Below, piece by piece: positions 30,357 through 48,370 of a stretch of DNA of 64,000 nt; the stretch's first letter is position 1, and each line of letters opens with the position of its first letter. The DNA is taken from contig NZ_CP042218.1 of assembly GCF_007795095.1 (NCBI RefSeq), forward strand, positions 372,001 through 436,000, written 5' to 3'. The notes below the pieces were generated by a model. It was given only the letters and a program-made list of their open reading frames with translations, had not been told where the DNA came from and did not search any database. The translations under genes and the position numbers were made by a program. The DNA is from Luteimonas granuli. Lineage in GTDB: Bacteria > Pseudomonadota > Gammaproteobacteria > Xanthomonadales > Xanthomonadaceae.

Positions 30357-31484
30357 TTACAGCCAGCCCAGCCAGCCGAACAGCCGATACAGGCCCCAGG
30401 CGATCATTCCGGACATCGGAATCGTCAGGATCCAGGCGCCGATCATCTTCTCCACCACGGTCCACTTGATGGCGTTGAGGCGCTTGGCCGTGCCCACGCC
30501 CATGATCGCCGACGAGATGTTGTGCGTCGTCGACACCGGGATGCCCAGCGACGACGCCGCCAGGATCACCGAGGCGGCGCTGGTCTCGGCCGCGAAGCCG
30601 TGGATGGGGTGCAGCTTCACCAGCTTGTGGCCCAGGGTCTTGATGATCCGCCAACCGCCGGCGGCGGTGCCCGCGGCCATGACCAGGGCGCAGGTGATCT
30701 TGATCCAGGTGTCGATGTCGCCGTCGGCCAGCGCGCCCTCGGACGGGTGCAGGAAGGCCAGCCAGCCCGGCAGCGCATCGAGCGTCCCGGCCGACTGCGC
30801 GCTCACCAGCGCCAGGGCGATGATGCCCATGGTCTTCTGCGCGTCGTTCATGCCGTGGGCGAAGCCCATGCCCGCGGCGCTGACGATCTGCGCCTTGCCG
30901 AAGAAGCCGTTGACCCAGCGCGGCCGCGCGATGCGCGCCAGCCGACCGCCGCTGCGCGCCATCATCGAGATCGCGAAGAACAGCACGCCCATCATCAGGA
31001 AGCCGGCGGCGAAGCCCAGGACGGGCGAACTGACCATCGGCACGATCACCTTCCACAGCACGCCGGCGCTGCGGTAGACCGGCTCCGCCGGCTGGGACCA
31101 GATGATCGAGTCCCAGTTGTTGCTGGTGGCGGCCAGCGCGGCGCCGATCAGGCCGCCGATCAACGCGTGCGAGGACGAGGACGGCAGGCCGAACCACCAG
31201 GTGATCAGGTTCCAGGTGATGCCGCCCAGCAGCGCGCAGAGGATCAGCTGCGAGCCGACCTCGACCACGCCGGCGTCGATCAGGCCCGAGGCGATGGTCT
31301 TCGCCACCGCCGTGCCCGCCAGCGCTCCGACAAGGTTCATGCCCGCGGCCAGGCCCACGGCCTGCATCGGCGACAGCACCTTGGTCGCCACCACCGTGGC
31401 GATGGAGTTCGCGGTGTCGTGGAAGCCGTTGATGTATTCGAAGGTCAGGGCCACCAGGATGACCACCAGCACCAGGGTGAGCAT
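30357..31484 (-). CDS. Low-affinity inorganic phosphate transporter, PiT family
   Basis: 375-aa integral membrane protein with about ten helices, importing phosphate (often as metal-phosphate) by proton symport. The two inverted PiT signatures are present: GFHDTANSIATVVATKVLSP near the N-terminus and GMGFAHGMNDAQKTMGIIA in the middle. SSSHALIGGLIGA and PVSTTHNISSAIMG are also conserved. It follows the DUF47 gene by 10 bp on the same strand, the usual pairing. Confidence 0.93.
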   Translation of the reverse strand: MLTLVLVVILVALTFEYINGFHDTANSIATVVATKVLSPMQAVGLAAGMNLVGALAGTAVAKTIASGLIDAGVVEVGSQLILCALLGGITWNLITWWFGLPSSSSHALIGGLIGAALAATSNNWDSIIWSQPAEPVYRSAGVLWKVIVPMVSSPVLGFAAGFLMMGVLFFAISMMARSGGRLARIARPRWVNGFFGKAQIVSAAGMGFAHGMNDAQKTMGIIALALVSAQSAGTLDALPGWLAFLHPSEGALADGDIDTWIKITCALVMAAGTAAGGWRIIKTLGHKLVKLHPIHGFAAETSAASVILAASSLGIPVSTTHNISSAIMGVGTAKRLNAIKWTVVEKMIGAWILTIPMSGMIAWGLYRLFGWLGWL

Positions 31485-31494
31485 GGCGCCGGCC

Positions 31495-32121
31495 TCAGCT
31501 GTTCTTGAGCACGATTTCGTAGGCCACCACGCCGGCCTCGCGGCAGCGGTCGATGGCCTTCTCGAGGATCTCGAAGAATTCCTTGAGCAGGAACATCTGC
31601 TGGGCGTCCAGCCTGCCGGAATAGATGTCGCGATAGAGCTCCAGCATCAGCCGGTCGGCCTCGTTCTCGATGGTGCGCAGTTGGTCGTTGAGCGCCTTCA
31701 TCGGCTCGAGCTTCAGATGGCGCAGCTGCTTCACCATCTTCACCACCACCCCGGCGGCCTGCTCGAGCATTGCCGCGCGCGGCGCGAAGTCGATGTGCTC
31801 CAGGTGGCGGGTGGCCAGTGCGTAGCGGTCGGCGAATTTCTCGATCTGCTTGGGGATCTTGTACAGCGCCGAGCCCAGGGCTTCGATGTCCTCGCGCTCG
31901 ATCGGCGTGATGAAGCTGTCCACCAGCGCCTGGCTGATCTTGTTCGAGGCCTCGCGCTCGCGCAGGCGCGCCAGCTTGAAGGCGTCCAGCGCCGGCTGCC
32001 GGTCGGCCTCGCGCAGCATCTGGTGGAGCGCGGTGGCGGCATCCAGCGCCGCCTGCGCGGCTTCCTCCAGCAGCGTGTAGAACTGCTTGCCCTGGCCGAA
32101 CATGGTCTGCAACGAGAACAT
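31495..32121 (-). CDS. DUF47/PhoU-like phosphate transport regulator
   Basis: 208-aa all-helical protein of the DUF47 family (PhoU-like fold), which accompanies Pit transporters and modulates them. Features are MFSLQTMFGQGKQFYTLLEEAA, FITPIEREDIEALGSALYKIPKQIEKFADR and a C-terminal EFFEILEKAIDRCREAG. The ATG at 32121 gives the standard length. It is the first gene of the two-gene unit with the Pit transporter. Confidence 0.93.
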   Translation of the reverse strand: MFSLQTMFGQGKQFYTLLEEAAQAALDAATALHQMLREADRQPALDAFKLARLREREASNKISQALVDSFITPIEREDIEALGSALYKIPKQIEKFADRYALATRHLEHIDFAPRAAMLEQAAGVVVKMVKQLRHLKLEPMKALNDQLRTIENEADRLMLELYRDIYSGRLDAQQMFLLKEFFEILEKAIDRCREAGVVAYEIVLKNS

Positions 32122-32270
32122 CGGGTCACCCCGCCGTCTCGGAATGGACGGCCGAAGGCGCGGATTATGACTGGCTTGTGACAGTCTCCGCCATCCGCAG
32201 GAGCGCATGGTTCCCGCAACCAGGACCACTTCCGGTGCCGGGAGGCGCGATCCGGCGGTCGGAACGGACC

Positions 32271-32279
32271 TGCTATGAT
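32271..32279 (+). promoter_or_regulatory. Candidate extended -10 promoter for the CNNM/CorC gene
   Basis: TGCTATGAT matches an extended -10 box (TGnTATAAT type) and lies about 125 bp upstream of the CNNM/CorC start. No good -35 box is visible. This is the only plausible signal in the 284-bp gap between the divergent DUF47 and CNNM genes. Confidence 0.35.
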
Positions 32280-32405
32280 CTTTCGCCGCGCCCGACGCGC
32301 CGTTTCCCCCATGGACGACGACCCGAGTACCACCCCTCGCGCCATGCGAGGACATGACACCCGCTCCGACGCCCCCGGGAGCCTCCGGCCGGGAGGGCCG
32401 GGCCG

Positions 32406-33716
32406 ATGATCGAACTGATCCTGATCGTGCTGGCGCTGATCGCGTGCAACGCCTTCTTCGCGCTGTCCGAGATGTCGGTCGTGACCTCGCGCAAGGGCAA
32501 GCTCAAGCAGATGGCCGACGGCCATCGCAGCGCGCGCAGGGCGCTGGAGCTGGCCGAGCACCCCGAACGCTTCCTGTCCACGGTCCAGGTGGGCATCACC
32601 CTGGTCGGCATCCTGACCGGCATGCTGGGCGGCGACGCCATCGGTTCCATGATCGAATCCTGGCTCGCGCCCCGGCTGCCCCTGCTCGGGGACTACGCCG
32701 GGCTGGTCGGAAAGACCGTCGCCGTCGGCCTGATCACCTACTTCACCATCGTGCTCGGCGAGCTGGTGCCGAAGCGCCTGGCCCTGCTGGCGCCCGAGCG
32801 CCTGGCGTCGCTGGTGGCGACACCGATGCACTGGCTGTCGCACATCGCGACCCCGGTGGTCTGGCTGCTCAGCGCCTCGGTGCGCGGACTGATGCGCCTG
32901 CTGCGACTGGACGGCACTCAGGCGGCGCAGGTGACCGAAGAGGAAATCCGACTGCTGGTGAGCGAAAGCCACGAGCAGGGCGTGATCGACGCCGACGAAC
33001 GCAACATGATGAACCGGGTGCTGCATCTGGGCGACCGCGACGCGCACAGCCTGATGACGCCGCGCACCCGCATCGCCTGGCTGGACGCGGCCGAGACGCT
33101 GGAGGACAACCTCGCGACCATGCGCGAGACCCCGTTCTCGCGCTATCCGGTGTACCGCGGCAGCGACGACGAGGTGATCGGCATCCTCGAGGTGAAATCG
33201 CTGATCGATCGCTTCCAGGCCGGCGAGTTCGACCTGTTCGAGCATCTGCGCGAGCCGCTGTTCGTGTCCGAGTCGACGCCGGCGCTGAAGCTGGTCGAGA
33301 TCCTGCGCGAGGAGCAGCAGTCGCTGGCCCTGGTGGTCGACGAGTACGGCGACGTCACCGGCATCATCAGCGTCAACGACGTCCTCGAGGCCGTGATCGG
33401 CCGCACCTCCAGCGGCGAAGGCGCCGACGCGCATCCGCTGGTGGTCGAGCGCGACGACGGCTCGCTGCTGGTCGACGGCGCCCTTGGCGTGGATTCGCTG
33501 CGCGAGCTGTTCAACGGCAGGCCCCTGCCCCATGCCGACGAACACGACTACAACACCGCCGCCGGCATGATCATCGCCCACTTCGGCCGCATCCCCGCCG
33601 TGGGCGAGCATTTCGAGTGGGCGGGGTGGCGCATCGAGGTGGTCGACCTCGATGGACCGCGCATCGACAAGCTGCTGCTGCAGCGCGTCGTCGGCGACCC
33701 GCCGGGCGATGGCTGA
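32406..33716 (+). CDS. CNNM/CorC-family transporter with CBS pair (hemolysin family)
   Basis: 436-aa membrane protein. Residues 1-185 form the CNNM/DUF21 domain with hydrophobic segments and the conserved FFALSEMSVVTSRKGKL. Residues about 205-330 are a CBS pair (SLMTPRTRIAWLDA..., YPVYRGSDDEVIGILEVK). The C-terminal CorC/HlyC domain (about 345-430) follows. Family members export Mg2+ or Co2+. The exoD gene begins 8 bp before its stop, so the two genes are coupled. Confidence 0.92.
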   Translation: MIELILIVLALIACNAFFALSEMSVVTSRKGKLKQMADGHRSARRALELAEHPERFLSTVQVGITLVGILTGMLGGDAIGSMIESWLAPRLPLLGDYAGLVGKTVAVGLITYFTIVLGELVPKRLALLAPERLASLVATPMHWLSHIATPVVWLLSASVRGLMRLLRLDGTQAAQVTEEEIRLLVSESHEQGVIDADERNMMNRVLHLGDRDAHSLMTPRTRIAWLDAAETLEDNLATMRETPFSRYPVYRGSDDEVIGILEVKSLIDRFQAGEFDLFEHLREPLFVSESTPALKLVEILREEQQSLALVVDEYGDVTGIISVNDVLEAVIGRTSSGEGADAHPLVVERDDGSLLVDGALGVDSLRELFNGRPLPHADEHDYNTAAGMIIAHFGRIPAVGEHFEWAGWRIEVVDLDGPRIDKLLLQRVVGDPPGDG

Positions 33717-34341
33717 GCACGCTCGACGGCATCGCCCGCGGGCGAGCGCGCGCGCACTGCTGGCGGCGCTGGCGGCGGGCCCCGCGGACGACGTCGTCAC
33801 CCTTCGCTCTGTGATGGAGGGCCTGGGCGGCAGCCTGTTCGGAATGCTGCTGTTCATCGCCACCCTGCCCGCCTTCCTGCCGATTCCCGGAGTGGCCGGC
33901 GCGCTCAGCGGTCCGCTGGTGAGCGTGATCGGCGTGCAGCTGCTGCTGTGCATGCGCAGACCCTGGCTGCCGCGCGTGATCGCCGACCGGGGTCCGAAGC
34001 GCGGTACTCTCGCGCGCTTCGAGCATCGGGTCTCGCCGTGGCTGAAGCGGCTGGAACGGGTGGTCCGCCCACGCCTCGGCGGACTGATCGACCATCCGGC
34101 CGCGACCATGGTCACCGGCCTGCTGCTGTTCCTGCTCGGCGTGCTGCTGGCGCTGCCCATCCCGTTCACCAACTACGTGTTCGGCCTGCTGCTGCTCGCA
34201 TACGCCCTGGCGCTGCTGGAGCGCGACGGCGCGCTCATGCTCCTCGCCTGGGTGGCCGGCCTGGCTGCGATCGCCGCCTTCGGCACCGCCGGTGGCACTC
34301 TGGGGGCCCTGGCGCTGGACTGGTTCCTTCCCGGGCGCTGA
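33709..34341 (+). CDS. ExoD family membrane protein
   Basis: 210-aa membrane protein of the ExoD family, named after a Sinorhizobium exopolysaccharide-related gene of unclear mechanism. Conserved parts are LGGSLFGMLLFIATLPAFLPIPGVAGALSG and a central RVVRPRLGGLIDHPAATM, with about five hydrophobic segments. The ATG at 33709 overlaps the 3' end of the CNNM gene by 8 bp. Confidence 0.88.
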   Translation: MAEHARRHRPRASARALLAALAAGPADDVVTLRSVMEGLGGSLFGMLLFIATLPAFLPIPGVAGALSGPLVSVIGVQLLLCMRRPWLPRVIADRGPKRGTLARFEHRVSPWLKRLERVVRPRLGGLIDHPAATMVTGLLLFLLGVLLALPIPFTNYVFGLLLLAYALALLERDGALMLLAWVAGLAAIAAFGTAGGTLGALALDWFLPGR

Positions 34342-34360
34342 GGACCGGACCTCCGTCCTC
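34340..34360. terminator. Small hairpin between convergent exoD and GGDEF-EAL genes
   Basis: An 8-bp stem with one bulged base (GAGGAC-GG pairing with CC-GTCCTC) spans the exoD stop codon and the 17-bp gap. It has no T-tract, so terminator function is tentative. Confidence 0.3.
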
Positions 34361-36488
34361 AGGCCAGCAGGCCGCGGAAGTCGTGCCCGTTCATGGGATA
34401 GCCCAGCCAATAGCCCTGGGCGAGGTCGCAGCCACGTTCGCGCAGCACGTCGTACTGGCCTTCCTTCTCCACGCCCTCGGCGACCACGGTGATGCCCAGC
34501 GAATGCGCCATGGCGATGATCGCCGTGGTCAGCGCCAGGTCGTCCGGGTCGCGCAGGACGTCGGCGATGAAGCTGCGGTCGATCTTGACGCCATCCACGG
34601 GCACCCTGCGGAGATGGCTGAGGCCCGAGAAGCCGGTGCCGAAATCGTCCAGCCAGACCTTGATGCCGGCGTCGCGCAGGCGCGCCAGCAGGCCGCTCAC
34701 CCGCTGCTCGTCGCCGATCACCGCGGTCTCGGTCAGCTCGATGTGCAGCCCGTCGGCGGGGAGGCCGGTCTGCGCAAGCACCTGCTCCACCTGGATGGCG
34801 AGGTCGCCGCTGCGCAGCTGCCGCGGCGACACGTTCACCGAGACGAACAGGTCGTTGCCCGGGAAATCGCTCCTCCACTCCACCGCGTCCATGCAGGCCG
34901 CGCGCAGCACCTGCGGACCGATGGTCTCGATCAGGCCGCTCTGCTCCGCGACATCGATGAACACGGACGGCGCCACCGCCCCGTACTCCGGGTGGTGCCA
35001 GCGCAGCAGCGCCTCGGCGCCGACCAGGCGCCTGTCCTCCAGGCGGTATATCGGCTGGTAGGCGAGGCTGAGCTCGCCGCGCTCCCATGCGCCACGCAGG
35101 TCCTGTTCCATGCGCACCCGGCGCTCCACCGCCTGGTCCATCGCGCGGCTGTAGAAGCGGTGGCAGTTCTTGCCGGCCACCTTGGCCTGGTACATGGCGA
35201 TGTCGCCGTTCTTCAGAAGCATCGTCGCGCCGGCGGCGTCGTCCGGAAACACGGTGATGCCGATCGAAGTGCCGAGGAAGACCTGGCGGCCGTCGATCAC
35301 GATCGGCCGGCCGAGCTCGGCCACAAGGGTCTCGGCGAGGTGGGCCGCATCGTCTCGGATGCCTCCCTGACCGCCGGAGAAGGACTCCACCAGGATGACG
35401 AACTCGTCGCCGCCGAATCGTGCCAGCAGCGACCTTTCGCCCCCCAGGCGATCGACCGTCTCGCGGATGCGGCTCGCGAACTGCACCAGGACCTCATCAC
35501 CGGCGTCATGGCCGAGGGTGTCGTTGACGCGCTTGAAGTCGTCGATGTCGGCGAACAGCAGCGCCAGCTGGCGGCCTGCGCCGTGCAGCTCCATCAGCCT
35601 GCGGTCGAGCTCCTCGCGGAACGCGAGCCGGTTCGCCAGCCCGGTGAGTGCGTCGGTATAGGCCATGCGCCGCATGTCGCGGTCCTGGCGGAGGATGCTT
35701 TCGCGCATCCGGCCGAAGGCACGCGTCAGGTCGCCGACCTCGTCGCGGCGGCCGGTGTCGGGCAGCGGGGCGGCGAAGTCGCCGGCCTCGATCGCGCGCG
35801 TGGCGTCGGCGAGCCGTCGCACGGGCCGTACGAGGCCCCGCTGGACCAGCACACCCAGTCCGATGGCCAGCAGCAACAGCCCGACCATGGCGGCCATGAT
35901 CCAGCCGGCGTGGCGCCGGCCGGTGGCGCTCAGCCGCTCGTCCATCCCGGCGGCGGCGCGCTGCTCGTCGGCGGCGACTGCCGCCAGCGAATAGCCGAGC
36001 CGAAGGCCGCCCAGGCGCACGTCGCCGATGTACAGCGGCACCGCGACGTCGAGCAGGTCCTCGCTCACCTGGATGTGCGGCCCGCGGGCGGTGATCACTT
36101 CGAACGCCATCGGGTCATCCATCACCTGCCCGTAGCTGCGGATGTCGCGCGAACCGTCGTGGATCACCGCGCCGTCGTTGTCGAAGACCACGGCATAGAC
36201 CACGTCGGGCTGCTTGAGCACGGCGCGCAGCAGGACCCCGATCTCGTCCAGGTCGAAGTAGTACAGCGGATTGACCAGGTCACTCGCGACCTGCACTGTC
36301 GCCGCCTCCGAGCGTTCGGCCATGCGATCGAAGGCCAGGGCGTGCATCGATTGCCTGCCCAGCACCAGCACGTCGTCGCGCATCGCCTCCTGACGGTGCA
36401 GGACCACCACCACCACCGCCACCACCGCGAGCAGGGCCAGCGCCAGGGCGATCAGGAATCGGCCGTACAGGCTCGTGCCCAGCTTCAT
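34359..36488 (-). CDS. Membrane GGDEF-EAL c-di-GMP enzyme
   Basis: 709-aa protein. A first transmembrane helix (about 8-30) and a second (about 193-215) flank a periplasmic sensor domain of about 160 residues. A HAMP region (about 215-270), a GGDEF domain with intact GGDEF in LLARFGGDEFVIL, and an EAL domain follow. EAL catalytic motifs are kept: EALLRW, ELTET, DDFGTGFSGLSHL, KIDRSFI, AEGVE. The RxxD inhibitory site before GGDEF is absent. Both synthesis and hydrolysis of c-di-GMP look possible. Its start overlaps the stop of the PhnD-like binding protein gene as ATGA. Confidence 0.93.
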   Translation of the reverse strand: MKLGTSLYGRFLIALALALLAVVAVVVVVLHRQEAMRDDVLVLGRQSMHALAFDRMAERSEAATVQVASDLVNPLYYFDLDEIGVLLRAVLKQPDVVYAVVFDNDGAVIHDGSRDIRSYGQVMDDPMAFEVITARGPHIQVSEDLLDVAVPLYIGDVRLGGLRLGYSLAAVAADEQRAAAGMDERLSATGRRHAGWIMAAMVGLLLLAIGLGVLVQRGLVRPVRRLADATRAIEAGDFAAPLPDTGRRDEVGDLTRAFGRMRESILRQDRDMRRMAYTDALTGLANRLAFREELDRRLMELHGAGRQLALLFADIDDFKRVNDTLGHDAGDEVLVQFASRIRETVDRLGGERSLLARFGGDEFVILVESFSGGQGGIRDDAAHLAETLVAELGRPIVIDGRQVFLGTSIGITVFPDDAAGATMLLKNGDIAMYQAKVAGKNCHRFYSRAMDQAVERRVRMEQDLRGAWERGELSLAYQPIYRLEDRRLVGAEALLRWHHPEYGAVAPSVFIDVAEQSGLIETIGPQVLRAACMDAVEWRSDFPGNDLFVSVNVSPRQLRSGDLAIQVEQVLAQTGLPADGLHIELTETAVIGDEQRVSGLLARLRDAGIKVWLDDFGTGFSGLSHLRRVPVDGVKIDRSFIADVLRDPDDLALTTAIIAMAHSLGITVVAEGVEKEGQYDVLRERGCDLAQGYWLGYPMNGHDFRGLLA

Positions 36489-37402
36489 TCGATCACCGCG
36501 CCGACGCGGGCGACGCCGGCCCTGAGCGTGTCCAGCGCGCCCGCGGTCTCCGCATCCACCGGAAGGAAGCGCGTGGTGCCGAAGAAGCGTTGCAGGGCCT
36601 CGCTGGCATCGGGATCGTTGTTGGCCTCGGCCAGCACTTCCCGCAGCCTGGTGGCGATCGCATCCGGCAGGTCGCCGCGCACCATCTCCAGCGCGCGCGG
36701 GTAGTCTCCGGTGGCATGGACGGCGACGAGGTCGCGGCGGTAGCTCTCGGGCATGCGCTGCACGCTGTCCCAGTCCAGGTTGCTGAGCGCACCGGCATCG
36801 ACCAGCCCCTTGTGCACCCAGGTGGAGATGTTGAACTCGGAGCGCGCGAACAGGTAGCCCACCGAATCCCCCGCGGGGCGGTCGAACGGCGAGAGCAGGA
36901 TCTCCATCTTCAGACCGCGTTCGATCAGCGTCATCGCCGGCACGAAGTAGGCGCTGGTGGATGTCGGATTCTGGAAGGCGATGCTGCGCCCGCGCAGATC
37001 GTCCAGGCCCTCGATGCCGCTGTCGCGGCGGGTGATGAAGACGGTGTGGTAGGAGCCTACGCCGCTGCGCTCCGTGAGCAGCAGCGGGCGGGCACCGGCG
37101 CGGGTCTGCAGGGCCATCGCGCTGCCGGCGGTCTCGGTCACCCAGTCGACCCGGCCGCGGCGCAGATAGCTCTCCATCTGCCTGAGGTCGCGGGCCATCA
37201 GCACCCTGCCCTCGCGGATTCCGACGTCGCCCATGCGCTGGACGACATAGTCCAGCAGGGGCTTGAGCTGGTCGTAGTGCGCGGCCGGGTCGTCGCTGAT
37301 CCGGCCCAGCACCAGCACACCGGGCTCGGTGGCGGCGGCAGGCACGCAGAGGGCGAACGAGGCTGCCAACGCGACCAGCAGCTGGCGGAGGCGGCGGAGC
37401 AT
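36485..37402 (-). CDS. PhnD-like periplasmic substrate-binding protein (c-di-GMP sensor partner)
   Basis: 305-aa exported protein with signal peptide about 1-24 (ending PAAA before TEPG) and a phosphate/phosphonate-type binding fold: VLVLGRISDDPAAHYDQLKPLLDYV, DWVTETAGSAMAL, SIAFQNPTSTSAYFVPAMTL. No ABC permease or ATPase lies nearby. Instead it overlaps by 4 bp a GGDEF-EAL gene, so it likely reports a ligand to that enzyme's periplasmic domain, as NspS does for MbaA in Vibrio. The ligand is unknown. Confidence 0.88.
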   Translation of the reverse strand: MLRRLRQLLVALAASFALCVPAAATEPGVLVLGRISDDPAAHYDQLKPLLDYVVQRMGDVGIREGRVLMARDLRQMESYLRRGRVDWVTETAGSAMALQTRAGARPLLLTERSGVGSYHTVFITRRDSGIEGLDDLRGRSIAFQNPTSTSAYFVPAMTLIERGLKMEILLSPFDRPAGDSVGYLFARSEFNISTWVHKGLVDAGALSNLDWDSVQRMPESYRRDLVAVHATGDYPRALEMVRGDLPDAIATRLREVLAEANNDPDASEALQRFFGTTRFLPVDAETAGALDTLRAGVARVGAVIE

Positions 37403-37473
37403 CTGAGGGTCGACCCGGTCTGCCGGCGGAAGATGGTGCAGCCTAGCGGAAAAACCCGCGTGTTGGCATCCAT

Positions 37474-38265
37474 TCAGCCGGCGTGGCCGCCATCGCCGGG
37501 AACACCTCCCGGCTGCGCCAGGCGCGCCATGCGCTGCGCGTCGGCGAGCACCCCGCGCAGCAGCCGCACCTCCCGCTCGTCCAGACCGCAACGCAGGAAG
37601 ATCCGACGCAGCTTGCGCAGCGCCGACTCGGGCGCGCGACCCTTGTGGAAGTCGATCGCGTCCAGGGTGTCGCCGAGCTGGGCGAAGAAGCCCTCGAGCT
37701 GGGCATGGCTGGCCGGTGGCTCGCGATGGCCGTCGCCGCCCCCGGTGGGCAGGCTGGCGCGCTCCAGCGCGGCGATCCGCAGTTCGTAGGCCAGGACCTG
37801 CACCGCCGCGGCCAGGTTCAACGAGCTGTAGACCGGATTGGCCGGGATGTGGACCGCCGCGTGGCAGAGCTGCAGCTCGTCGTTCTCGAGACCGGTACGC
37901 TCGCGCCCGAACACCAGCGCCACCGGTGCCGAGGGACCGGCCGCGTCCAGCAGCCGCGCGGCACCGGCGCGGGGCGCCAGCTCTTCCAGCTGCACGCGGC
38001 GGCTGCGGGCGGTGCACCCGAGCACCAGTGCGCAGTCGGCCACGGCCTCGGCGAGGGTTGCGGTGATGGTCGCGGCGGCGAGCACGTCGTCGGCTCCCGC
38101 CGCCATCGCCGCGGCGTCCGCATGCGGGAACCGTTCCGGTGCGACGAGCACGAGGCGCTCCAGCCCCATGGTCTTGAGCGCGCGCGCGGCCGCGCCGATG
38201 TTGCCCGGATGCTGGGTGCCGACGAGGACGATGCGGACTTCGCCCGCTGGCTGTGCGGTGTTCAT
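37474..38265 (-). CDS. trmJ: tRNA (cytidine/uridine-2'-O-)-methyltransferase TrmJ
   Basis: SPOUT (SpoU) methyltransferase, 263 aa, methylating the 2'-OH of nucleotide 32 in tRNA. Motifs are VLVGTQHPGNIGAAARALKTMG, LVFGRERTGLENDELQLCHAAVHIPANP and the knot motif SSLNLAAAVQVLAYELR. The start at 38265 (MNTAQPAGEV) is well placed. It is divergent from suhB, with an 87-bp gap. Confidence 0.93.
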   Translation of the reverse strand: MNTAQPAGEVRIVLVGTQHPGNIGAAARALKTMGLERLVLVAPERFPHADAAAMAAGADDVLAAATITATLAEAVADCALVLGCTARSRRVQLEELAPRAGAARLLDAAGPSAPVALVFGRERTGLENDELQLCHAAVHIPANPVYSSLNLAAAVQVLAYELRIAALERASLPTGGGDGHREPPASHAQLEGFFAQLGDTLDAIDFHKGRAPESALRKLRRIFLRCGLDEREVRLLRGVLADAQRMARLAQPGGVPGDGGHAG

Positions 38266-38274
38266 GGGCGCGAA

Positions 38275-38283
38275 TGGTAAACT
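38275..38283 (+). promoter_or_regulatory. Candidate extended -10 promoter for suhB
   Basis: TGGTAAACT reads as an extended -10 (TG, one base, TAAACT) about 70 bp upstream of the suhB ATG, in the short gap shared with the trmJ promoter. The -35 region is poor. Confidence 0.4.
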
Positions 38284-38352
38284 GCGCGGCGGCCCCGAGC
38301 CGCCTGCTCTTTCTCCCTGCCGTCCCCCTCCCCACGCCGGAGCCCGCCTGCG

Positions 38353-39177
38353 ATGCAACAACCTGCCGTCAACATCATGGTCAAGGCGGCCCGCGCCGGC
38401 GGCAACATCCTGCTGCGGCACATGCACAGGCTCGACGCGATCAACGTCGTCGAGAAGGACCGCATGGACTACGCCAGTGAAGTCGACCGGCTGGCCGAGG
38501 TGGCGGTGGTCAAGGAGCTGCGCCGCGCCTATCCGGAGTACGCCGTCCTCGGCGAGGAATATGGCGAGCAGAAGGGCAGCAAGGGCGCCAGCCGCTACAC
38601 CTGGGTCATCGACCCGCTCGACGGCACCAGCAACTATCTGCGCGGCTTCCCGCACTGGTGCGTCTCGATCGCGCTGTGCGAAGGCCCGGAGCCGCTGCAC
38701 GGCGTGATCTTCGACCCGCTGCGCAACGAGCTCTTCACCGCGAGCCGCGGCGCCGGCGCCCAGCTCAACGAGAAGCGCATCCGCGTGGCCGAGCGCAAGG
38801 ACCTGGCCGGCGCCACCATCGCCACCGGCTTCCACCCGCGGGAGCGCGCCCGTACGGCGGCGCAGTTCGACTGCCTGCGCCAGGTGCTGTCGGTGGCCGA
38901 GGACATGCGCCGCAGCGGCTCGGCCGCCCTCGACCTGGCCTACGTCGCCGCCGGCCGCATCGACGGCTATTTCGAGGCCGGCGTGCAGGCCTGGGACATC
39001 GCCGCCGGCATGCTGATGGTGCGCGAGGCCGGCGGCAAGGTCAGCGACTACAAGGGCGCCGCCATCGGTCCGGTGCACGTGGCCATGCAGAGCCGGCAGA
39101 TCGTGGCCGGCAACCTGCGCGTCTCGGAGGCGCTGCAGAAGAACATCGTCGCCTCGGGCTACGCCGCGGCGTACTGA
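38353..39177 (+). CDS. suhB: Inositol-1-monophosphatase SuhB
   Basis: 274-aa Mg2+-dependent phosphatase; in E. coli SuhB also joins the rRNA antitermination complex. Metal-binding motifs are GEEYGE, the signature [16 protein letters not shown] and [15 protein letters not shown]. The ATG at 38353 has GGAG upstream. It is followed by a 730-bp repeat-rich non-coding block and a bidirectional terminator. Confidence 0.95.
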
Positions 39178-39192
39178 GGTCCGCGACTGCCG

Positions 39193-39244
39193 GGTGAGCA
39201 CACCCCCCTGTGCCCGGGGCGGCCAGCGAGAACCCCAACGGAGC
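39193..39244. repeat. Partial copy of the hairpin element
   Basis: GAGCACACCCCCCTGTGCCCG and a following AACCCCAACGGAGCGGCT match the right arm and right flank of element B (39748 onward) with a few mismatches. No left arm is visible, so this is a truncated copy next to the suhB stop. Confidence 0.55.
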
Positions 39245-39335
39245 GGCTCGGATGCGGCCCAACCACGATCCGCGTGCCGACCACCGTCCCTGAGCCCGAA
39301 AGAAACAAAAAAGTTCTTCTCCCGATCGAGGGGAC

Positions 39336-39422
39336 GCTCCGTTCGAGTCCGGGTCGGCCGCCACTGGCGCTCCGGTGAAGTCCGGGCCGCCCGCCGCTCC
39401 GGTGAGGCCCGGGCCGCCCGCC
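39336..39422. repeat. Three imperfect 27-nt tandem repeats
   Basis: Copies at 39369-39395 and 39396-39422 differ at only two positions (both begin GCTCCGGTGA). A more diverged copy starts at 39336 (GCTCCGTTCGAGTCCGGGTC). The array abuts and overlaps the left arm of hairpin element A. Confidence 0.7.
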
Positions 39423-39530
39423 ACGGAAGCAGGGGGGATGCCCAGCCGGATTCTCCGCGTCCTGCTCCCAGATCCGGCCGCCGGCCATCCATGGCCGGCT
39501 CTGGGCATCCCCCCTGCATCCGCGGCGGGC
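39416..39530 (+). repeat. 115-bp hairpin element, copy A
   Basis: Terminal inverted repeats of 29 bp (39416-39444 and 39502-39530) match at 27 of 29 positions; the inner 16 bp (GCAGGGGGGATGCCCA) are perfect. The interior contains CGTCCTGCTCCCA and a small palindrome GGCCATCCATGGCC. The same interior occurs in reverse orientation in copy B, so the two belong to one family. The whole could fold into one long hairpin. Confidence 0.75.
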
Positions 39531-39658
39531 ACGACCTTTCGTGCGGTCTGGAAGAGGGCACGTCGACGTCCACGTCAAAACGGAGGGCGTCATGCCGGGA
39601 GCATCCCGCCCGGCTCCGCCGCTTTTGATCTTCCGTCCCGAAGCCGCAGAACGCCGGA

Positions 39659-39774
39659 GCCCGTCCCGCGTACAGGGGGTGTGCGGACAGCCGGCCATGG
39701 ATGGCCGGCGGCCGGCCGATGGGAGCAGGACGCGGAGACGGCCGGGGAGCACACCCCCTGTGCGCGGGACGGGC
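39659..39774 (-). repeat. 116-bp hairpin element, copy B (inverted relative to A)
   Basis: Terminal inverted repeats of 26 bp (39659-39684 and 39749-39774) match at 25 of 26 positions. The core ACAGGGGGTGTGC is perfect. The interior carries GGCCATGGATGGCC and TGGGAGCAGGACG, the reverse complement of the copy A interior. Copies A and B face each other across about 130 bp. Confidence 0.75.
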
Positions 39775-39870
39775 GGCGCGGACCCCAACGAAGCGGCTTC
39801 AAGGCGTCAGTGCACCAAGAGGAACAGCGCTCCAAATGCACGCCATCGCCCCCGGAGTCTGGAGAAGAAC

Positions 39871-39899
39871 AAAAAAAACCCCGCCGAAGCGGGGTTTTT
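39871..39899. terminator. Bidirectional Rho-independent terminator
   Basis: A perfect 8-bp stem (AACCCCGC, loop CGAA, GCGGGGTT at 39877-39896) is preceded by an A-run and followed by TTT. It serves suhB on the plus strand and the secD-secF unit on the minus strand. Confidence 0.85.
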
Positions 39900-39913
39900 C
39901 CGTATCCGCCAGC

Positions 39914-40878
39914 TCAGGGCCTGCGGGCGAGTTCGGCGTCGTCGCGGGCTCTCGGCAGCAGGTCCTGCTTGGTGACCTTGAGGAAGCCCATGGTCAGCAA
40001 CGGGCAGGCCACGAAGATCGAAGACAGAGTGCCGATCACGATGCCGGCCATCATCGACAGCGACATGCCCTCCAGCGAGCCCCCCCGTAGAGGAACAGCG
40101 CCAGCACGGTCAGGAAGGCCACCACCGAGGTGATGATGGTGCGCGACAGGGTCTGGTTGATCGAGGCGTTGAGCACCTCCATCGGCGGCGCGCGCATGCT
40201 GCGGAAGTTCTCGCGGACACGATCGAAGACCACGATGGTGTCGTTGATCGAGAAGCCCATCACCGACAGCAGGCCGGCAAGTACGGTCAGGTCGAACTCC
40301 TGGCCGCTGATCGCGAACCAGCCGGCCACGATCAGCACATCGTTGAGCGTGGTGACGATTGCCGCGACCGCGAACTTCCATTCGAAGCGGAAGCCGATGT
40401 AGATCAGGAAGCCCACGACCACGAACAGGACCGCGTACAGGCCGTTCCAGGCCAGGTCGCGGCCGACCTGCGGGCCGACGAAGGCGCTGCTCTGGATGGT
40501 GGCGGCGTTGCCCTCCAGGGATGCCGCCGCCAGCACTTCCGCCGCGGTGCGCGCGGTGGCGTCGGCGCTGGTCTCGCCGTCGCGCGGCTGCAGCCGCACC
40601 AGCAGGTCGCTGCCGCTGCCGAAGGTCTGGACCTGGGCGCCGGGATAGCCGGCGTCGGCCAGGCGTTCGCGCACACCGTCGACGTCGGCCGGCTGCTCGA
40701 AACGCAGCTCGACCACAGTGCCGCCAGTGAAGTCCAGCGCGTAGTTGAAGCCCTTTCCGGCGATCGCGACGAGGGTGGCGACGGTCAGCAGCGCGAACAC
40801 CGCCACCGAAACCCAGCGCAGGCGCATGAAGTCGATGTTCGGCGTCGCCGGGATCAGGCGCAGGGGAAAGATGTTCAT
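39914..40878 (-). pseudogene. secF: Protein-export membrane protein SecF, reading frame interrupted
   Basis: SecF pairs with SecD to drive proton-powered late protein translocation. The frame from 40878 encodes MNIFPLRLIP..., the periplasmic domain and transmembrane helices through SFINDTIVVFDRVREN-type motifs (FSINDTIVVFDRVRENF). It then runs off after FLYGG into an unrelated tail, stopping at 40051. The normal C-terminus (SLEGMSLSMMAGIVIGTLSSIF...LARRP) is intact in another frame down to 39914. The break is at a run of seven Gs on the coding strand (40080-40086), one base short. A sequencing or assembly error or slippage is more likely than true loss, since secF is normally needed. Confidence 0.85.
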
Positions 40879-40894
40879 GTGTCGTGTGCCCGCG

Positions 40895-42760
40895 TCAGAT
40901 GGCCAGGGTCTTGAGCTTGCGCTTGCCGCCGTAGACCAGGGTGGCGATGCCGCGCGAGACGGTCACCGCGGTGAACACCGAAGTCATGATGCCGATCACC
41001 ATGGTCACCGCGAAGCCCTTCAAGGGGCCGGTGCCGAAGGCGAACAGCGCGATGCCGGCCAGCAGCGCGGTCATGTTGGAGTCGAAGATCGTGCCCGAGG
41101 CCTTGTCGTAGCCGTTGGCGATCGCCCCCCGTGCCGGCATGCCATCGCGCAGCTCCTCGCGGATGCGTTCGTTGATCAGCACGTTGGCGTCCACCGACAT
41201 GCCGATCGACAATGCGAGGCCCGCGAAGCCCGGCAGCGACATGGTGGCGCCGAACAGGCTCATGATCGCGACCACCATCAGCAGGTTGAGCAGCAGCGCC
41301 ATGCAGGTGAACAGGCCGAACATGCGGTAGTAGATGCCGAAGAACATCAGGGTGAACACGAAGGCATAGAGCACCGCCGTGGTGCCACGCTCGACGTTCT
41401 CCTTGCCGAGGCTCGGTCCCACGATGCGCTCCTCGATGAAATCCATCGGCGCGGCCAGCGAACCCGAACGCAGCAGGCGTGCCAGGCCGTCGGCCTCGGA
41501 CTTCTCCAAGCCGGTGGTCTGGAAGTTCTTTCCGAACACGCCGTTGATGTTGGCGACCGAGATCACCTCTTCCTTGATCCGGAAGCTGCGGACTTCCTCG
41601 CCCGCGGCGTTGGTGGTGACCTGCGGGATGCGCTCGATGTAGACCACGGCCATCGGCTTGCCGACGCTGACCGAAGTGAAGTCGAACATGCGCTGGCCGC
41701 CGACGTTGTTGAGCGTCACGCTGACCGCGGGCATGCCGTTCTCGTCGAGCGTGGACTGTGCGGCCACCATCTGCTCGCCCGAGGCGATCACCCGCTTGGA
41801 GAGCAGCACCGGGATCGGGCGGCCGTCGATGCCCGTGCGGCGCTGGTAGTACACGCGCGCCTCCGGCGGGACGTTGCCGGTGGCCGCCGCGTCATAGGGA
41901 TCGCCGTCCACCACCGCGCGGTATTCCAGGGTGGCGGTGGCGCCGATCATGCGCTTGGCCTCGGCGGTGTCCTGGACGCCGGGGAGCTGCACCACCACGC
42001 GGTCGCTGCCCTGCCGGGTGATCACCGGTTCGCCGACGCCGACCTCGTCCACGCGGTTGCGCAGGGTGTTGATGTTCTGCTCGATGGCGTCCGCGGAGAT
42101 CTGGTTGAGTTCGGCCTCGGGCACGCGGATGGTGATGCGGCTGCCCACGGCCTCGCGCAGCAGGGTCGGCTGGGCGACGGCCAGCAGCGACATCGCGCGG
42201 TCGGCGTCGGCCGCGTCGGCCAGCTGGGCCACGGTGGTGCCCACGGCGTTGCGCTCCACCGAGTCGTAGCGGATGCGGTTGTCGCGAAGCACCTGGCGGA
42301 CTTCGTCGGCGTAGGCGTCCAGACGCTTGTCGAGCGCCGCCTTCTGGTCGACCTGGAGCACGAAATGCACGCCGCCCTGCAGGTCGAGGCCGAGCAGCAT
42401 GGGCTTCGCCCCGAACCAGGACAGCCAGTCGGGCACGGTGGATGCGAGGTTGAGCGCGACCACGTAGTCCTCGCCCAGCGCCGGGCGCAGCGCGTCGGCG
42501 GCCCGGGTCTGGTCGTCGAGGTCGAGCAGGCGGACCATGCGCTCGCCGTCCTCGGAGGTGTCGATGGCCTTCGGGGTGACGCCGGCCTCGGCCAGCGCCG
42601 CTTCGATCCTGCCGTCGAGCTCCACGCCGGTGGCGGCGCCACGATTGGCGGTGATCTGCACCGAGGGGTCCTGTGGATAGATGTTGGGCAGCGCGTACAG
42701 CGCGCTCAACAGCACCACGATCAGGATGACGACGTACTTCCAGCGGGGAAATTCGAGCAT
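40895..42760 (-). CDS. secD: Protein translocase subunit SecD
   Basis: 621-aa inner-membrane protein with one N-terminal helix (about 7-25), a large periplasmic region containing GLDLQGGVHFVLQVD, and five C-terminal helices with GLALSIGMSVDANVLINERIREE, the proton-path signature. With SecF it pulls substrates out of SecYEG on the periplasmic side. Order yajC-secD-secF is the usual one; secF starts 16 bp later. Confidence 0.96.
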   Translation of the reverse strand: MLEFPRWKYVVILIVVLLSALYALPNIYPQDPSVQITANRGAATGVELDGRIEAALAEAGVTPKAIDTSEDGERMVRLLDLDDQTRAADALRPALGEDYVVALNLASTVPDWLSWFGAKPMLLGLDLQGGVHFVLQVDQKAALDKRLDAYADEVRQVLRDNRIRYDSVERNAVGTTVAQLADAADADRAMSLLAVAQPTLLREAVGSRITIRVPEAELNQISADAIEQNINTLRNRVDEVGVGEPVITRQGSDRVVVQLPGVQDTAEAKRMIGATATLEYRAVVDGDPYDAAATGNVPPEARVYYQRRTGIDGRPIPVLLSKRVIASGEQMVAAQSTLDENGMPAVSVTLNNVGGQRMFDFTSVSVGKPMAVVYIERIPQVTTNAAGEEVRSFRIKEEVISVANINGVFGKNFQTTGLEKSEADGLARLLRSGSLAAPMDFIEERIVGPSLGKENVERGTTAVLYAFVFTLMFFGIYYRMFGLFTCMALLLNLLMVVAIMSLFGATMSLPGFAGLALSIGMSVDANVLINERIREELRDGMPARGAIANGYDKASGTIFDSNMTALLAGIALFAFGTGPLKGFAVTMVIGIMTSVFTAVTVSRGIATLVYGGKRKLKTLAI

Positions 42761-42863
42761 GGTCGGTTCTTGCGCGAGGTCGTCCCGCGGGCGGGAGTGA
42801 CAGGTTCGGAGGCGGCGCGGCGACCCGCCGGCGCGAACGCCGGTGGTGCGCGGGCAGCCGGCG

Positions 42864-43202
42864 TCAGGCGTTCTTCAGGGAGCCCTTGGGCAGCACGTTC
42901 CCCACCGCGTTCTTCTGCACCCGGATCTCGACGTTGTCCGCGATCTCGACGGTGACGAAGCTGTCTCCCACGCGGCGCACGACGCCGGCGATGCCGCCGC
43001 TGGTGATGACCTCGTCGCCGACGGCCAGCTTCTCGACCATGGCGCGATGGTCCTTGGCGCGCTTCATCTGCGGGCGGATCATCAGGAAATACATGATCAG
43101 CAGCAGGATCACGGGGAAGGCGAGCGTGGACAGCATGCTCGGGGCCTGCGGGGCGGCGGCCTGGGCGTAGGCGGGAGCGATGAGGAGGTCGAGCAGGCTC
43201 AT
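42864..43202 (-). CDS. yajC: Preprotein translocase subunit YajC
   Basis: 112-aa single-span membrane protein associated with SecDF. A hydrophobic segment (about 24-44, ending IMYFLMIRPQMKR) is followed by the soluble part with GDEVITSGGIAGVVRRV and VEIADNVEIRVQK. It lies between tgt and secD as in many proteobacteria. Confidence 0.95.
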   Translation of the reverse strand: MSLLDLLIAPAYAQAAAPQAPSMLSTLAFPVILLLIMYFLMIRPQMKRAKDHRAMVEKLAVGDEVITSGGIAGVVRRVGDSFVTVEIADNVEIRVQKNAVGNVLPKGSLKNA

Positions 43203-43269
43203 TGACGGTCGTCCGGTGCGGAAATCAGCGGAACATTATGCCACGGCCCTGCAAGGGCCGGGATCCGGG

Positions 43270-43299
43270 CCGCAGGAGCGGCTGCAGCCGCTCCTGCGG
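43270..43299. repeat. Perfect 30-bp REP-like palindrome
   Basis: CCGCAGGAGCGGCTG is followed at once by its exact reverse complement. It lies in the 110-bp gap between tgt and yajC and resembles REP sequences of the GTAGGAGCGGC type. It could form a hairpin in the tgt-yajC transcript. Confidence 0.65.
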
Positions 43300-43312
43300 G
43301 AATCCGCACGGG

Positions 43313-45469
<2,157 letters not shown>

Positions 45470-45473
<4 letters not shown>

Positions 45474-47215
45474 GCCATCTTCTCCCGTCCATAGCGCACG
45501 CCGGTGCGCGCCAGCAGCACCACCGGCAGCAGGCCGACGGCGACGATCAGCATCGCCGCCACCGCGCCTTCCTCATAGGTCCCGCGCGATGCCTCGGCAT
45601 ACAGCCAGGTCGCGAGGGTCTCGAAATTCAGCGGCCGCAGCAGCAGGGTCGCCGGCAGTTCCTTCATCGCGTCCACGAACACCAGCAGCGCGGCCGCGGC
45701 CAGCGCCGGCCGCAGCAGCGGGAGATGCACCCGTCGCAGCGCCGCGCCCGGCGCGTGACCCAGGCTGGACGCGGCCTGGTCGAGGCTCGGCGGGATGCGC
45801 GCGAGGCCGGCCTCGATGCCGCCGGCGGCGATGGCCAGGAAGCGCGCCGCATAGGCCAGCACCAGTGCGGCCGCCGAACCCATCAACAGCATCCGGGGCT
45901 CGAACCCGAAGCCGCGGAGCAGCGCGTTGCCGCCGTGGTCGAACCAGGCCAGCGGCAACAGCACGCCGATGGCCAGCACCGTGCCCGGCACCGCATAGCC
46001 GAGGCTGCCGGCGCGCAGGGCCAGCAGCGCGCCGCCGGTGCGCCGGCGCCCCTGCGCCAGGCGCATCGACCATCCCAGCACCAGGCCGGCGGCGAGCGTG
46101 ACCACGGTGGCGGCCAGGGCGACGCCCACCGTGTTGCGTACGCTCGACAGCAGCTGCAGCGAAACACCGGACGAGCCGATGCGCCGCGCCGCCTCCCAAG
46201 CGAGGTAGCCGGCCGGGAGCACGAAGCCCACCAGCACCGGGAAGGCGCCCAGTGCGCATGCCAGCGCCGCCGCGCCGCCGCGCAGCCGTTGGGGACGCAT
46301 CGGCCGCGGCCGTTCGCCCACCGCATAGCGCTGTCGCCGACGCGCGTGGCGTTCCAGCGCCAGCAGCAGGACCACGATCGCCAGCATCGCCAGCGCGATC
46401 TGCGCCGCGCCCGGCAGGTCCGAGCGCGTCACCCATGTGGTGTAGACGGCCACGGTCAGCGTCTGCACGCCGAGGAACTCGGAGGCGCCGATGTCGTTGA
46501 GCACTTCCATCAGGGCCAGCGCCGTGCCGACGGCGATCGCCGGCCGCGCCAGCGGCAGGGCCACGCGCCGGAACACCTGCACCGGCGGGGTGCCCAGCGT
46601 TCGCGCCGCCTCCAGCAGCCCTGCGGCCTGGGTCATGAACATCGCGCGGGTGGTCAGATAGACGTAGGGATAGAGCACGAAGCCCAGCAGCACGATGCAG
46701 CCGGCCAGGCCGCGGATGTCGGGCAGGCGGAAGTCGCGCGGGCTGTCGTAACCCAGCAGCGCCCGCACCACGCCCTGCACCGGCCCCAGCGGGTGGAGCA
46801 GGTCGAGGTAGGCGAAGGCGACGATGTAGGTCGGCACCGCCAGCGGCAACAGCAGCGCCCAGGCCAGGATGCGCCGGCCGGGGAAGTCGTACGCCGTCAC
46901 CAGCCACGCCGCGCCGGTGCCGATCGACACCACCAGCGCGCCGACCCCGACCAGGAGCGCCAGGGTGTTGCGCGCGGCTCCGGGCAGGACGTAGCGGGCG
47001 ACATGGCTCCAGAGTCCGTCCTGCCCACCCTGCAGGGCGGTCCAGGCCAGCGAGGCCAGCGGCAGCAGCACCAGCGCCGCGATCGCCGCCGCCGCCCATT
47101 GCCACGGGCCTTCGGGCAGCAGGCGGCGCAGGCCGCGGCCGGAAGCGCCGCGGACCACCGGGTGCATCACACCCGCGGAGATTCCAGCCGCCGCCATCGG
47201 TATGCCGTCGGTCAC
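45470..47215 (-). CDS. fbpB: Ferric iron ABC transporter permease (FbpB-like, fused two-domain)
   Basis: 581-aa permease with about twelve helices, formed by two tandem permease domains. Two EAA loops for ATPase contact are visible: EAARTLGTPPVQVFRRVALPLARPA and QAASSLGHAPGAALRRVHLPLLRPA. This double layout is characteristic of FbpB/SfuB iron permeases. It starts 4 bp downstream of the fbpA stop and overlaps fbpC by 4 bp. Confidence 0.9.
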
Positions 47216-47219
47216 CGCG

Positions 47220-48308
47220 TCAGTTGTCGAAGCCGACCTTGTCGACCAGCTCGCTTGCCGTGCGGCGGTTCGCGACCACCTCGGTCAGCGGCAGCGGATC
47301 GACCTCGAGCGGACCGAAGCTCGCGACCACCGGATCGAGTTCGACGCCGGCCTTCACCGGATATTCGTAGTTGGCGCGCGCATACAGGCTCTGTGCCGCA
47401 TCGGAGACCAGGTATTCCATCAGCGCCACGGCGTTGTCGCGGTTCGGCGCGTGGCGGGCCAGGGCGGCGGCGCTGATGTTGACGTGGGTCCCGCCGCCCT
47501 CGACGTCGAAGGTGGGCCGGATGACCTTGATCGCCTCGCCCCACCGGCGCTGCTCGGATCCCGGCTCGGCGTTCTTCATCTGGCCGACGTAGTAGGCGTT
47601 GGCGATGCCGATGTCGCAGATGCCGGCGAGGATGTCGCGGGCAACGTCGCGGTCGCCGCCGGCGGCCTTGCGCGCGAGGTTGGCCTTGACGCCGCGCAGC
47701 CAGGTTTCCGTGGCTTCGACGCCATGGTGGGCCACCATCGCCGCGAACAGGCTGGTGTTGTACGGGTGCTGTCCGGAGCGGATGCAGACCCTGCCCTTCC
47801 ACTGCGGGTCGGCCAGGTCCTCATAGTGGAAGGACTCGAGGTCGAGGTCCTTGTCCGCGTACAGCACACGGTCGCGCAGCGACATCGCGAACCACTGGCC
47901 GTCGGCGCCGCGGAGGTGCGCCGGGATCGCCGCCTCCAGCACTTCGGATTTCAGCGGCCGGGTGTGCCCGGCCTCGACCAGGTCGAGCATGTTGCCGGTG
48001 TCGACCACCATCAGCACGTCCGCCACCGAACGCTCGCCCTCGGCGCCCAGGCGCTCGAGCAGGCCGTCCTTCAGCAGGACCGTATTGACCTTGATGCCCG
48101 AGCTGGCGGTGAAGGCGTCGAGCAGCGGCTGGACCAGGGCGGGCTCTCGTGTCGTGTAGAGGTTCACTTCGCCGCCGGCCGTGGGGGCAGCGGAGGAACC
48201 GCCGGAAGTCGCCGTCGGCGCCGGCGCGCTGCCGCCGCAGGCGACGAGCAGGATGCCTGCGCAGGCGGGAACGAGCATGGCGCGGATTGCGCGGAAACCG
48301 GTCTTCAC
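47220..48308 (-). CDS. fbpA: Ferric iron-binding lipoprotein (FbpA-like)
   Basis: Periplasmic Fe3+-binding protein of the extracellular solute-binding family 1. It begins with a lipoprotein signal (LLVAC then GGSAPAP), followed by EVNLYTTREPALVQPLLDAF, DVLMVVDTGNMLDLVEAG and GICDIGIANAYYVG, in which the tyrosines fit family iron ligands. GTG at 48308 is chosen because AGGAG lies 6 nt before it; the ATG two codons upstream (48314) directly abuts that AGGAG. A Fur-like box lies about 45 bp upstream. Confidence 0.9.
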   Translation of the reverse strand: MKTGFRAIRAMLVPACAGILLVACGGSAPAPTATSGGSSAAPTAGGEVNLYTTREPALVQPLLDAFTASSGIKVNTVLLKDGLLERLGAEGERSVADVLMVVDTGNMLDLVEAGHTRPLKSEVLEAAIPAHLRGADGQWFAMSLRDRVLYADKDLDLESFHYEDLADPQWKGRVCIRSGQHPYNTSLFAAMVAHHGVEATETWLRGVKANLARKAAGGDRDVARDILAGICDIGIANAYYVGQMKNAEPGSEQRRWGEAIKVIRPTFDVEGGGTHVNISAAALARHAPNRDNAVALMEYLVSDAAQSLYARANYEYPVKAGVELDPVVASFGPLEVDPLPLTEVVANRRTASELVDKVGFDN

Positions 48309-48351
48309 GGGCATCTCCTGTGGCGTTCCACGGCCGGATGGCCCTGGCTTC

Positions 48352-48370
48352 AAATGAGAATGATACTCGA
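48352..48370 (-). promoter_or_regulatory. Candidate Fur box upstream of fbpABC
   Basis: AAATGAGAATGATACTCGA closely resembles Fur sites (AATGAGAATnATTCTCATT type). The left half is near perfect and the right half partly degenerate; about 10 of 14 positions fit the 7-1-7 model TGATAATnATTATCA. It lies between the queA stop and fbpA, so it would repress fbpABC, and possibly tgt, when iron is plentiful. Confidence 0.6.

Follow-up and report, generated by a model that had tools for sequence, protein, structure and literature searches.

Facing hairpins between suhB and secF in Luteimonas granuli: halves of a dispersed MITE with ISL3-like ends and TwoAYGGAY-like, possibly CsrA/RsmA-binding, modules

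What are the two large hairpins that face each other downstream of a suhB-like gene in Luteimonas granuli, and are they repeats, parts of a mobile element or structures that act as RNA? We analysed this locus in a stretch of 64,000 nucleotides (the window, in whose coordinates positions are given) from a genome of one contig (2,917,404 bases). An earlier note had described two hairpins with near-perfect arms in opposite orientation. This was confirmed: module A (39416–39530) has arms of 30 nt that are complementary at 93%, and module B (39659–39774) has arms of 26 nt that are complementary at 96%, with 128 bp between the two modules. Compared in inverted orientation, A and B share 57 nt that are 82% complementary. 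Each module has the shape of a Y, comprising a long stem bearing two small hairpins, and the internal order is common to both: outer stem, hairpin 1 (GCCGGCCATGGATGGCCGGC) and hairpin 2 with the loop GGGAGCAGGACGCGGAG. The module ends read GCCCG. The fold energies of A and of B lie 9.5–10.9 SD below those of dinucleotide shuffles on both strands, and a 411-nt region of the locus has a fold z of −10.8. The features of the locus are as follows.

38353–39177, plus strand: suhB-like gene (inositol monophosphatase family), convergent neighbour
39190–39310, no strand: probable remnant (right half) of an older composite, from a repeat match and by eye
39305–39312, no strand: A-tract at the left edge, likely target duplication (7 of 8 positions like the right tract, by eye)
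39313–39870, plus strand: composite element from left to right end, from end motifs and copy alignment; the outermost G/C is lost at both ends
39313–39331, plus strand: left terminal sequence GTTCTTCTCCCGATCGAGG, from end motifs and copy alignment
39416–39530, minus strand (GGA-loop strand): Y-shaped module A, from the repeat, copy matches and folding
39446–39477, minus strand: hairpin 2 of A, loop with GGAGCAGGACGCGGAG, from sequence and folding
39480–39499, minus strand: hairpin 1 of A, loop ATGGAT, from sequence and folding
39531–39658, no strand: spacer, which varies among copies, from sequence and copy alignment
39659–39774, plus strand (GGA-loop strand): Y-shaped module B, from the repeat, copy matches and folding
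39690–39709, plus strand: hairpin 1 of B, loop ATGGAT, from sequence and folding
39712–39745, plus strand: hairpin 2 of B, loop with GGAGCAGGACGCGGAG, from sequence and folding
39850–39870, plus strand: right terminal sequence CCCCGGAGTCTGGAGAAGAAC, from end motifs and copy alignment
39871–39878, no strand: A-tract at the right edge, likely target duplication, from sequence
39872–39901, minus strand: intrinsic-terminator-like hairpin on the secF side (one found against 0.8 expected in shuffles)
40051–40878, minus strand: secF, convergent neighbour

The third, truncated copy that the earlier note placed at 39193 is real: 39204–39248 matches 39754–39798 at 84% over 45 nt, and 39193–39207 is identical to 39744–39758 at 14 of 15 positions. 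From this similarity, it reads as a remnant of the right half of an older composite. Separately, the secF frame seems broken near 40080, with its C-terminal part in another frame (39914–40381, minus strand); either an indel from sequencing or a true frameshift may be the cause.

The element family occupies about 50 places in this genome. The loop motif GGAGCAGGACGCGGAGA, with up to two mismatches, was found at 96 genome sites, against 6 for a reversed control. Searches with A and with B scored at most 40 candidates each, and the resulting counts are lower bounds: 51 of the 53 candidate stretches fetched hold a module or part of one, and BLAST in these 53 loci returned 53 B and 41 A matches, of which 53 B and 39 A (92) exceed 80 bits. 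There are at least 37 A–B composites, all with facing modules and with 78–192 bp from A to B, while another 14 loci carry B but no full A, and two carry truncated copies. Because the arrangement A–spacer–B recurs, we consider A and B to be halves of one mobile unit. The hairpins are thus repeats, as first proposed, but not free-standing copies of one element. The broader picture of a repeated, palindromic, non-autonomous, MITE-like element, larger than REP units and with target duplications, was borne out.

Some copies show further arrangements. L213, L232, L233 and L238 (spacers of 190–192 bp) and L247 (182 bp) form a long-spacer subfamily with a diverged A; four of the spacers are 93–98% alike, that of L247 only about 65%. 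At L216 (genome 1080459–1081082) adjacent composites lie in the order B–A–B, and at L053/L212 two element ends meet across TTTTTG. The composite arms (39335–39421; L035, L037, L039) contain tandem units in variable number, of about 27–33 bp beside A and about 38–42 bp beside B. A plasmid or phage origin was rejected, since distant blastn searches with 39370–39900 found no match in a plasmid collection (72,556 records) or a phage collection (50,697 records). Among the matches listed for literature on Luteimonas repeats or MITEs, the available texts contain nothing on this element.

The ends of the composite point to how it moved. It starts GGTTCTTCTCCCGATCGAGG and finishes CCCCGGAGTCTGGAGAAGAACC, or in short form GGTTCTTCTCC...GGAGAAGAACC. 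This end motif is present in the left flank of 28 of 37 composites, in the right flank of 30 and in both flanks of 23, compared with 0.16 per flank in shuffled flanks and 15 of 74 in the wrong orientation. A stricter scan gave 21 composites with both ends, 497–871 bp in length (median 560). The A+T content of the 8 bp flanking their ends is 74% on the left and 76% on the right, against 26% further out on the left, and AAAA or TTTT lies within 12 bp of an end in 18. The flanking 8-mers of the 21 composites agree at a mean of 4.86 of 8 positions (2.53 in mismatched loci), with 7 or 8 matches in 5 (2.9% in mismatched loci). Full 8-bp agreement was observed for two composites (TGAATAAA, TTTTTCAT) and for a third in a separate comparison of copies (GAAAAAAA), and most of the remaining 8-mers agree less well, partly from uncertain register in A/T runs. 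The target duplications that the earlier note suggested looking for are therefore present, A/T-rich and 8 bp long, and they lie at the composite ends. Its view of each 115-bp hairpin as the mobile unit was not supported; the unit is the A–B composite with ISL3-like ends.

The ISL3 transposase (PF01610) matches along the whole profile in genus genomes G002, G003, G005, G027, G029 and G034, and has no match in this genome. Four of the 13 ISL3 loci scanned (two of G029, G002, G005) are elements of 1305–1310 bp that start GGTTC(A/T)TC and have A/T-rich 8-bp duplications agreeing at 7 or 8 positions; such ends and duplications were not seen in the other 9. A right-end variant of the composite, GGTTCATCTCCCAACTCCGGGGAACGCTGCCCGGATCTTGAG, aligns past the repeat with the ISL3 end GGTTCATCTCCCAAGTCCGGGGAACGCCGCCCGTATCTTGAG, and at two loci of G026 an ISL3 copy and a composite lie side by side in one T-tract. 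A covariance model trained on the modules of this genome (R1, whose E-values are rough) gave no match within the intact ISL3 elements that were fetched; its sole weak match in their loci (L139, 25.2 bits) falls beyond the ISL3 copy. Clustering near transposases, a check proposed at the outset, was not seen, with both families searched (ISL3 and Y1) having no match in this genome. Judged by its ISL3-like ends, its A/T-rich 8-bp duplications and the homology beyond the repeat in one end variant, the composite originated as an ISL3-type MITE, and the sequences support well its mobility by an ISL3-type transposase. In sequence comparison, some spacers at different sites are 98–99% alike. The lack of a PF01610 match here, the 9 ISL3 loci without such ends and the genomes in which the end motif is at background argue against the ISL3 tie.

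These latter genomes emerged from a wider search with R1, which matched 25 of 52 genus genomes (70 matches in G017) and, across the order, 16 of 299 sampled genomes in 10 of 85 genera; a stricter filter makes both counts lower bounds. The case that the two window copies stand alone, without relatives elsewhere, is contradicted by these relatives and by the 92 matches over 80 bits. In a public genome collection that excludes this genome, an exact 26-bp core matched no genomes other than those of L. padinae, L. colneyensis, L. arsenica and Lysobacteraceae NML91-0213. Facing pairs recur in the fetched relatives, and diverged species have ATGGAT-type loops on both small hairpins. This genome and L. 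padinae (3/4 and 4/4) have a clear end motif; it is weaker in G017 (5 and 5/11) and G026 (9 and 8/22), and in G016, G072, G061 and the diverged species it does not rise above background. Paired modules thus extend beyond the ISL3 association. By eye, L371 of G310, from another genus, has ISL3-like ends beside A-tracts.

The facing pairs in genomes with ISL3-like ends at background, and in other genera, would also suit a module pair that is itself the mobile unit, with its single-stranded DNA hairpins recognised by some transposase and the ISL3-like ends acquired in one clade. We regard this as distinctly unlikely, given that the duplications here lie at composite ends and not module ends, that there is no Y1 association, and that the ISL3 and Y1 families searched yielded no candidate enzyme. 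A REP/BIME (REPIN) element mobilised by a RAYT, which the earlier note had raised, would share the high copy number, inverted pairing and intergenic position, but is hardly credible here. No Y1_Tnp was found in this genome, and Y1 does not track the module in the genus (present in 16 of the 25 genomes with modules and in 17 of the 27 without), and on these two counts the reading was rejected. Target duplications are not expected of HUH transposition and are present; the end motif of REP sequences is GTAG and that of the modules is GCCCG.

The insertion sites are strongly biased. Using codon-usage gene calls made in this analysis, we placed 52 of the 53 scored elements, every one of them intergenic, between 25 convergent, 22 codirectional and 5 divergent gene pairs. 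The other neighbouring gene pairs (n = 199) comprise 27 convergent, 129 codirectional and 43 divergent, giving a convergent-site excess (25/52 vs 27/199) with an odds ratio of 5.9 and p = 3.8e-7. By eye, many of the flanking A/T tracts are the T-runs of intrinsic terminators. The A/T-rich 8-bp duplications at its ends place the element beside A/T tracts, in most cases on the downstream side of genes. A bidirectional transcription barrier or mRNA 3′-end stabiliser, tolerated between convergent genes because its very stable structures block read-through and shield mRNA ends (roles ascribed to REP sequences), would account for these positions and for the extreme fold stability. We hold it to be decidedly improbable, as stability alone leaves the one-strand GGA loops and the near-identity of whole modules (both described below) unexplained, and some copies, by eye, already adjoin terminators.

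For the suhB–secF site itself, 30 loci were given for the 49 matching of 52 genomes, and 18 were inspected by eye: six have modules (this genome, G003, G018, G072, G026 and G017), two have other hairpin repeats and ten have neither. The order of A and B varies among species at this site and at several other shared sites, and several gene pairs hold the element in two or more species. Within this genome, 36 of 37 spacers are most similar to another spacer of the same genome, the exception being L219, whose spacer is closest to a G026 copy elsewhere. Shared ancestral insertions were rejected because orientations often differ and because of this spacer similarity within the genome; both favour separate insertions, and we read the pattern as probable insertion into the same terminators, more than once and after the species had separated. 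Inversion of the spacer by recombination, as once suggested for the facing pair, was not seen directly, and separate insertions account better for the opposite orientations. A second kind of paired hairpin repeat, AAGGAGGAGG...GGGGGACATG flanking a small hairpin, occupies the same kind of intergenic site at L139, L342 and L346 (other Luteimonas genomes) and L335, with an ISL3 copy nested in the one at L139.

The loops of the modules differ between strands. With strand set by pair geometry alone (left module minus, right module plus), and with module coordinates in relatives taken from R1, GGA-containing terminal loops are predicted outward from the spacer in 329 of 332 cases (166 modules, 13 genomes), a count that includes all hairpins, with 3 of 332 lacking GGA. 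On the opposite strand, GGA occurs in 0 of 330 predicted terminal loops. Since the copies of one genome share ancestry, it is their occurrence across species that provides independent evidence. The hairpin 1 loop is A(N)GGA(U/C), where N is T, G, C or A, and the hairpin 2 loop is mostly CAGGACG, CTGGACG or CAGGAUG. Among 29 distinct 20-nt hairpins, 6 of 7 stem pairs have changed on both sides, a covariation score reached by 0 of 500 shuffles; these hairpins were picked for folding and 20-nt form, leaving out the CAGGATG hairpins that differ in length and two G028 hairpins whose loops are ATGCAT and ATGAAT, so the alignment overstates pairing and GGA constancy.

This architecture resembles TwoAYGGAY (RF01731), which the available text of the source papers describes first as a candidate structured RNA (PMC2864571) and later as predicted to bind CsrA (PMC4333381). 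TwoAYGGAY and RsmY belong to one Rfam clan (CL00106). In terms of the AYGGAY motif, the hairpin 1 loop is ATGGAT, and the hairpin 2 loop is CAGGACG here and AYGGAY in diverged species. No Rfam family scored over its gathering score in 30000–50000 of the window, and the best TwoAYGGAY score in this genome is 25 bits (E 0.19), below the cut-off of 43, so we name the window modules TwoAYGGAY-like and not members. At E up to 1, TwoAYGGAY matched 27 of 52 genus genomes, over the cut-off in 5 (lower bounds under the stricter filter), and 0 of 14 controls. On the modules of relatives it reached 40.1 bits in G032 (again under 43) and 31 bits in G028. R1 matched four of the five over-cut-off TwoAYGGAY loci fetched (L390 43.6, L391 50.7, L393 29.9 and L394 39.4 bits), with no match in L392; L393 and L394 have a facing partner. 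Some of the 27 TwoAYGGAY genomes have no R1 match, showing that the two models cover different sets. RsmY was considered and rejected, as its low-threshold matches in L200 fall on or near a terminator hairpin and not on modules. In the available text of the literature naming TwoAYGGAY, mobility is not mentioned.

The available text of PMC7652899 gives the CsrA/RsmA site as a GGA presented by a hairpin loop, seen as ANGGAN in RsmE structures, CAGGA(U/A/C)G repeats in CsrB and RUACARGGAUGU by SELEX, most SELEX hairpins having no more than 4 contiguous pairs; compared with these short stems, the 8-bp stems here may give weaker binding. The accessible part of PMC4333381 states that sites are generally paired because CsrA is a dimer. 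A csrA gene is present in this genome (E 1.9e-25). Taken together, the loops, strand polarity, covariation and family link lead to the specific prediction that the modules bind CsrA/RsmA. Our searches found no literature joining CsrA, REP and sponge, and for CsrA with ‘miniature inverted-repeat’ only a database paper matched, going by its available text.

The divergence of the copies bears on whether the modules matter. Mean pairwise identity among copies (gaps excluded) is 0.953 for A and 0.960 for B, compared with 0.78–0.80 for the spacer and both arms. We binned 666 copy pairs, which are not independent, by spacer divergence. In the 7 youngest pairs the spacer differs by 1.5%, A by 2.7% and B by 1.7%, and at spacer divergences of 12.8, 16.8 and 22.7%, A differs by 3.9, 6.5 and 4.2% and B by 3.3, 4.3 and 3.7%. 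The modules thus diverge like the spacer in the youngest pairs, showing no protection after insertion, and are nearly constant between old lineages, which points to constraint in the lineage that goes on moving. As to why a MITE keeps such a module, we infer from these values that it is needed by the propagating element, and not by the host at each site. Gene conversion confined to the modules gave no signal and was rejected, at low power: in the 6 youngest pairs, differences with both alleles common elsewhere are similar in A (6 of 18), spacer (5 of 12) and B (4 of 12).

An ordinary ISL3 MITE, in which the Y hairpins are carried along merely as structure and no protein binds the GGA loops, would explain the ISL3-like ends with duplications, and would also agree with the spacer-like decay of modules in young copies and with the result of a simple scan, which found no sigma-70-like promoter in 39100–40000. 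It is nevertheless unlikely, given that modules of old lineages are 3–7% divergent against 13–23% for the spacer, and that the GGA loops are strand-specific and kept while the stems change.

We therefore favour, with a probability of about 0.45, an ISL3-type MITE carrying two outward TwoAYGGAY-like modules that most likely act as RNA and bind CsrA/RsmA. An ISL3 transposase, which has no match in this genome today, would have moved the composite in trans. Outward transcripts from the spacer, or processed read-through, would expose one bivalent CsrA/RsmA site per module, and the roughly 90 modules would form a dispersed sponge or 3′-UTR handle, retained, as the divergence suggests, for propagation of the element. 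Several points weigh against the RNA reading: no promoter was found, the window modules score under the TwoAYGGAY cut-off, the stems are long, the modules of young copies show no protection, and the predicted fold of a whole-element transcript pairs A with B, so that the GGA loops would be hidden at full length.

More tentatively, a mobile pair of CsrA/RsmA-binding RNAs may supply dozens of genes with bivalent sites at their 3′ ends, making an evolvable genome-wide CsrA sponge, with the module kept for element propagation. A possible benefit would be that the module relieves CsrA repression of transposase translation, or softens the cost of insertion; if so, the TwoAYGGAY RNAs of the genus would be mobile pairs of the same kind.

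If the favoured reading is right, a mobile element scatters about 90 binding sites of a global regulator in one genome, and transposition could alter the dosage of the CsrA/RsmA system. For TwoAYGGAY, an orphan Rfam family, this would mean a genomic behaviour (dispersed outward pairs, within this genus) and a partner that can be tested. Even without the CsrA link, this is probably an ISL3-type MITE at terminator A/T tracts whose Y structures vary far less than its other parts, and such selection within a non-autonomous element is unusual.

Compared with known systems, the element is like REP/BIME/REPIN sequences in its intergenic, high-copy, inverted palindromes, but differs in its larger unit, its target duplications and the absence of a RAYT link. 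With ISL3-family insertion sequences and derived MITEs (PF01610) it shares GGTTC(A/T)TC ends and A/T-rich 8-bp duplications, and one composite end variant is homologous beyond the repeat; unlike the insertion sequences, the composite has no transposase gene and bears two Y-shaped modules. The modules share with TwoAYGGAY RNA an outer stem and two small hairpins with AYGGAY-like loops, whereas the window copies score under the cut-off, have a larger, multi-GGA hairpin 2 loop, and occur as outward pairs within a transposable element. As in the sponges CsrB, RsmY, RsmZ and RsmU, there are several hairpin-loop GGAs per RNA. RsmU, an RsmA sponge of Xanthomonas, derives from a 3′ UTR (PMC7694677, available text). 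In contrast to the one or few dedicated genes of these sponges, the modules described here, with their predicted binding, are dispersed as mobile copies.
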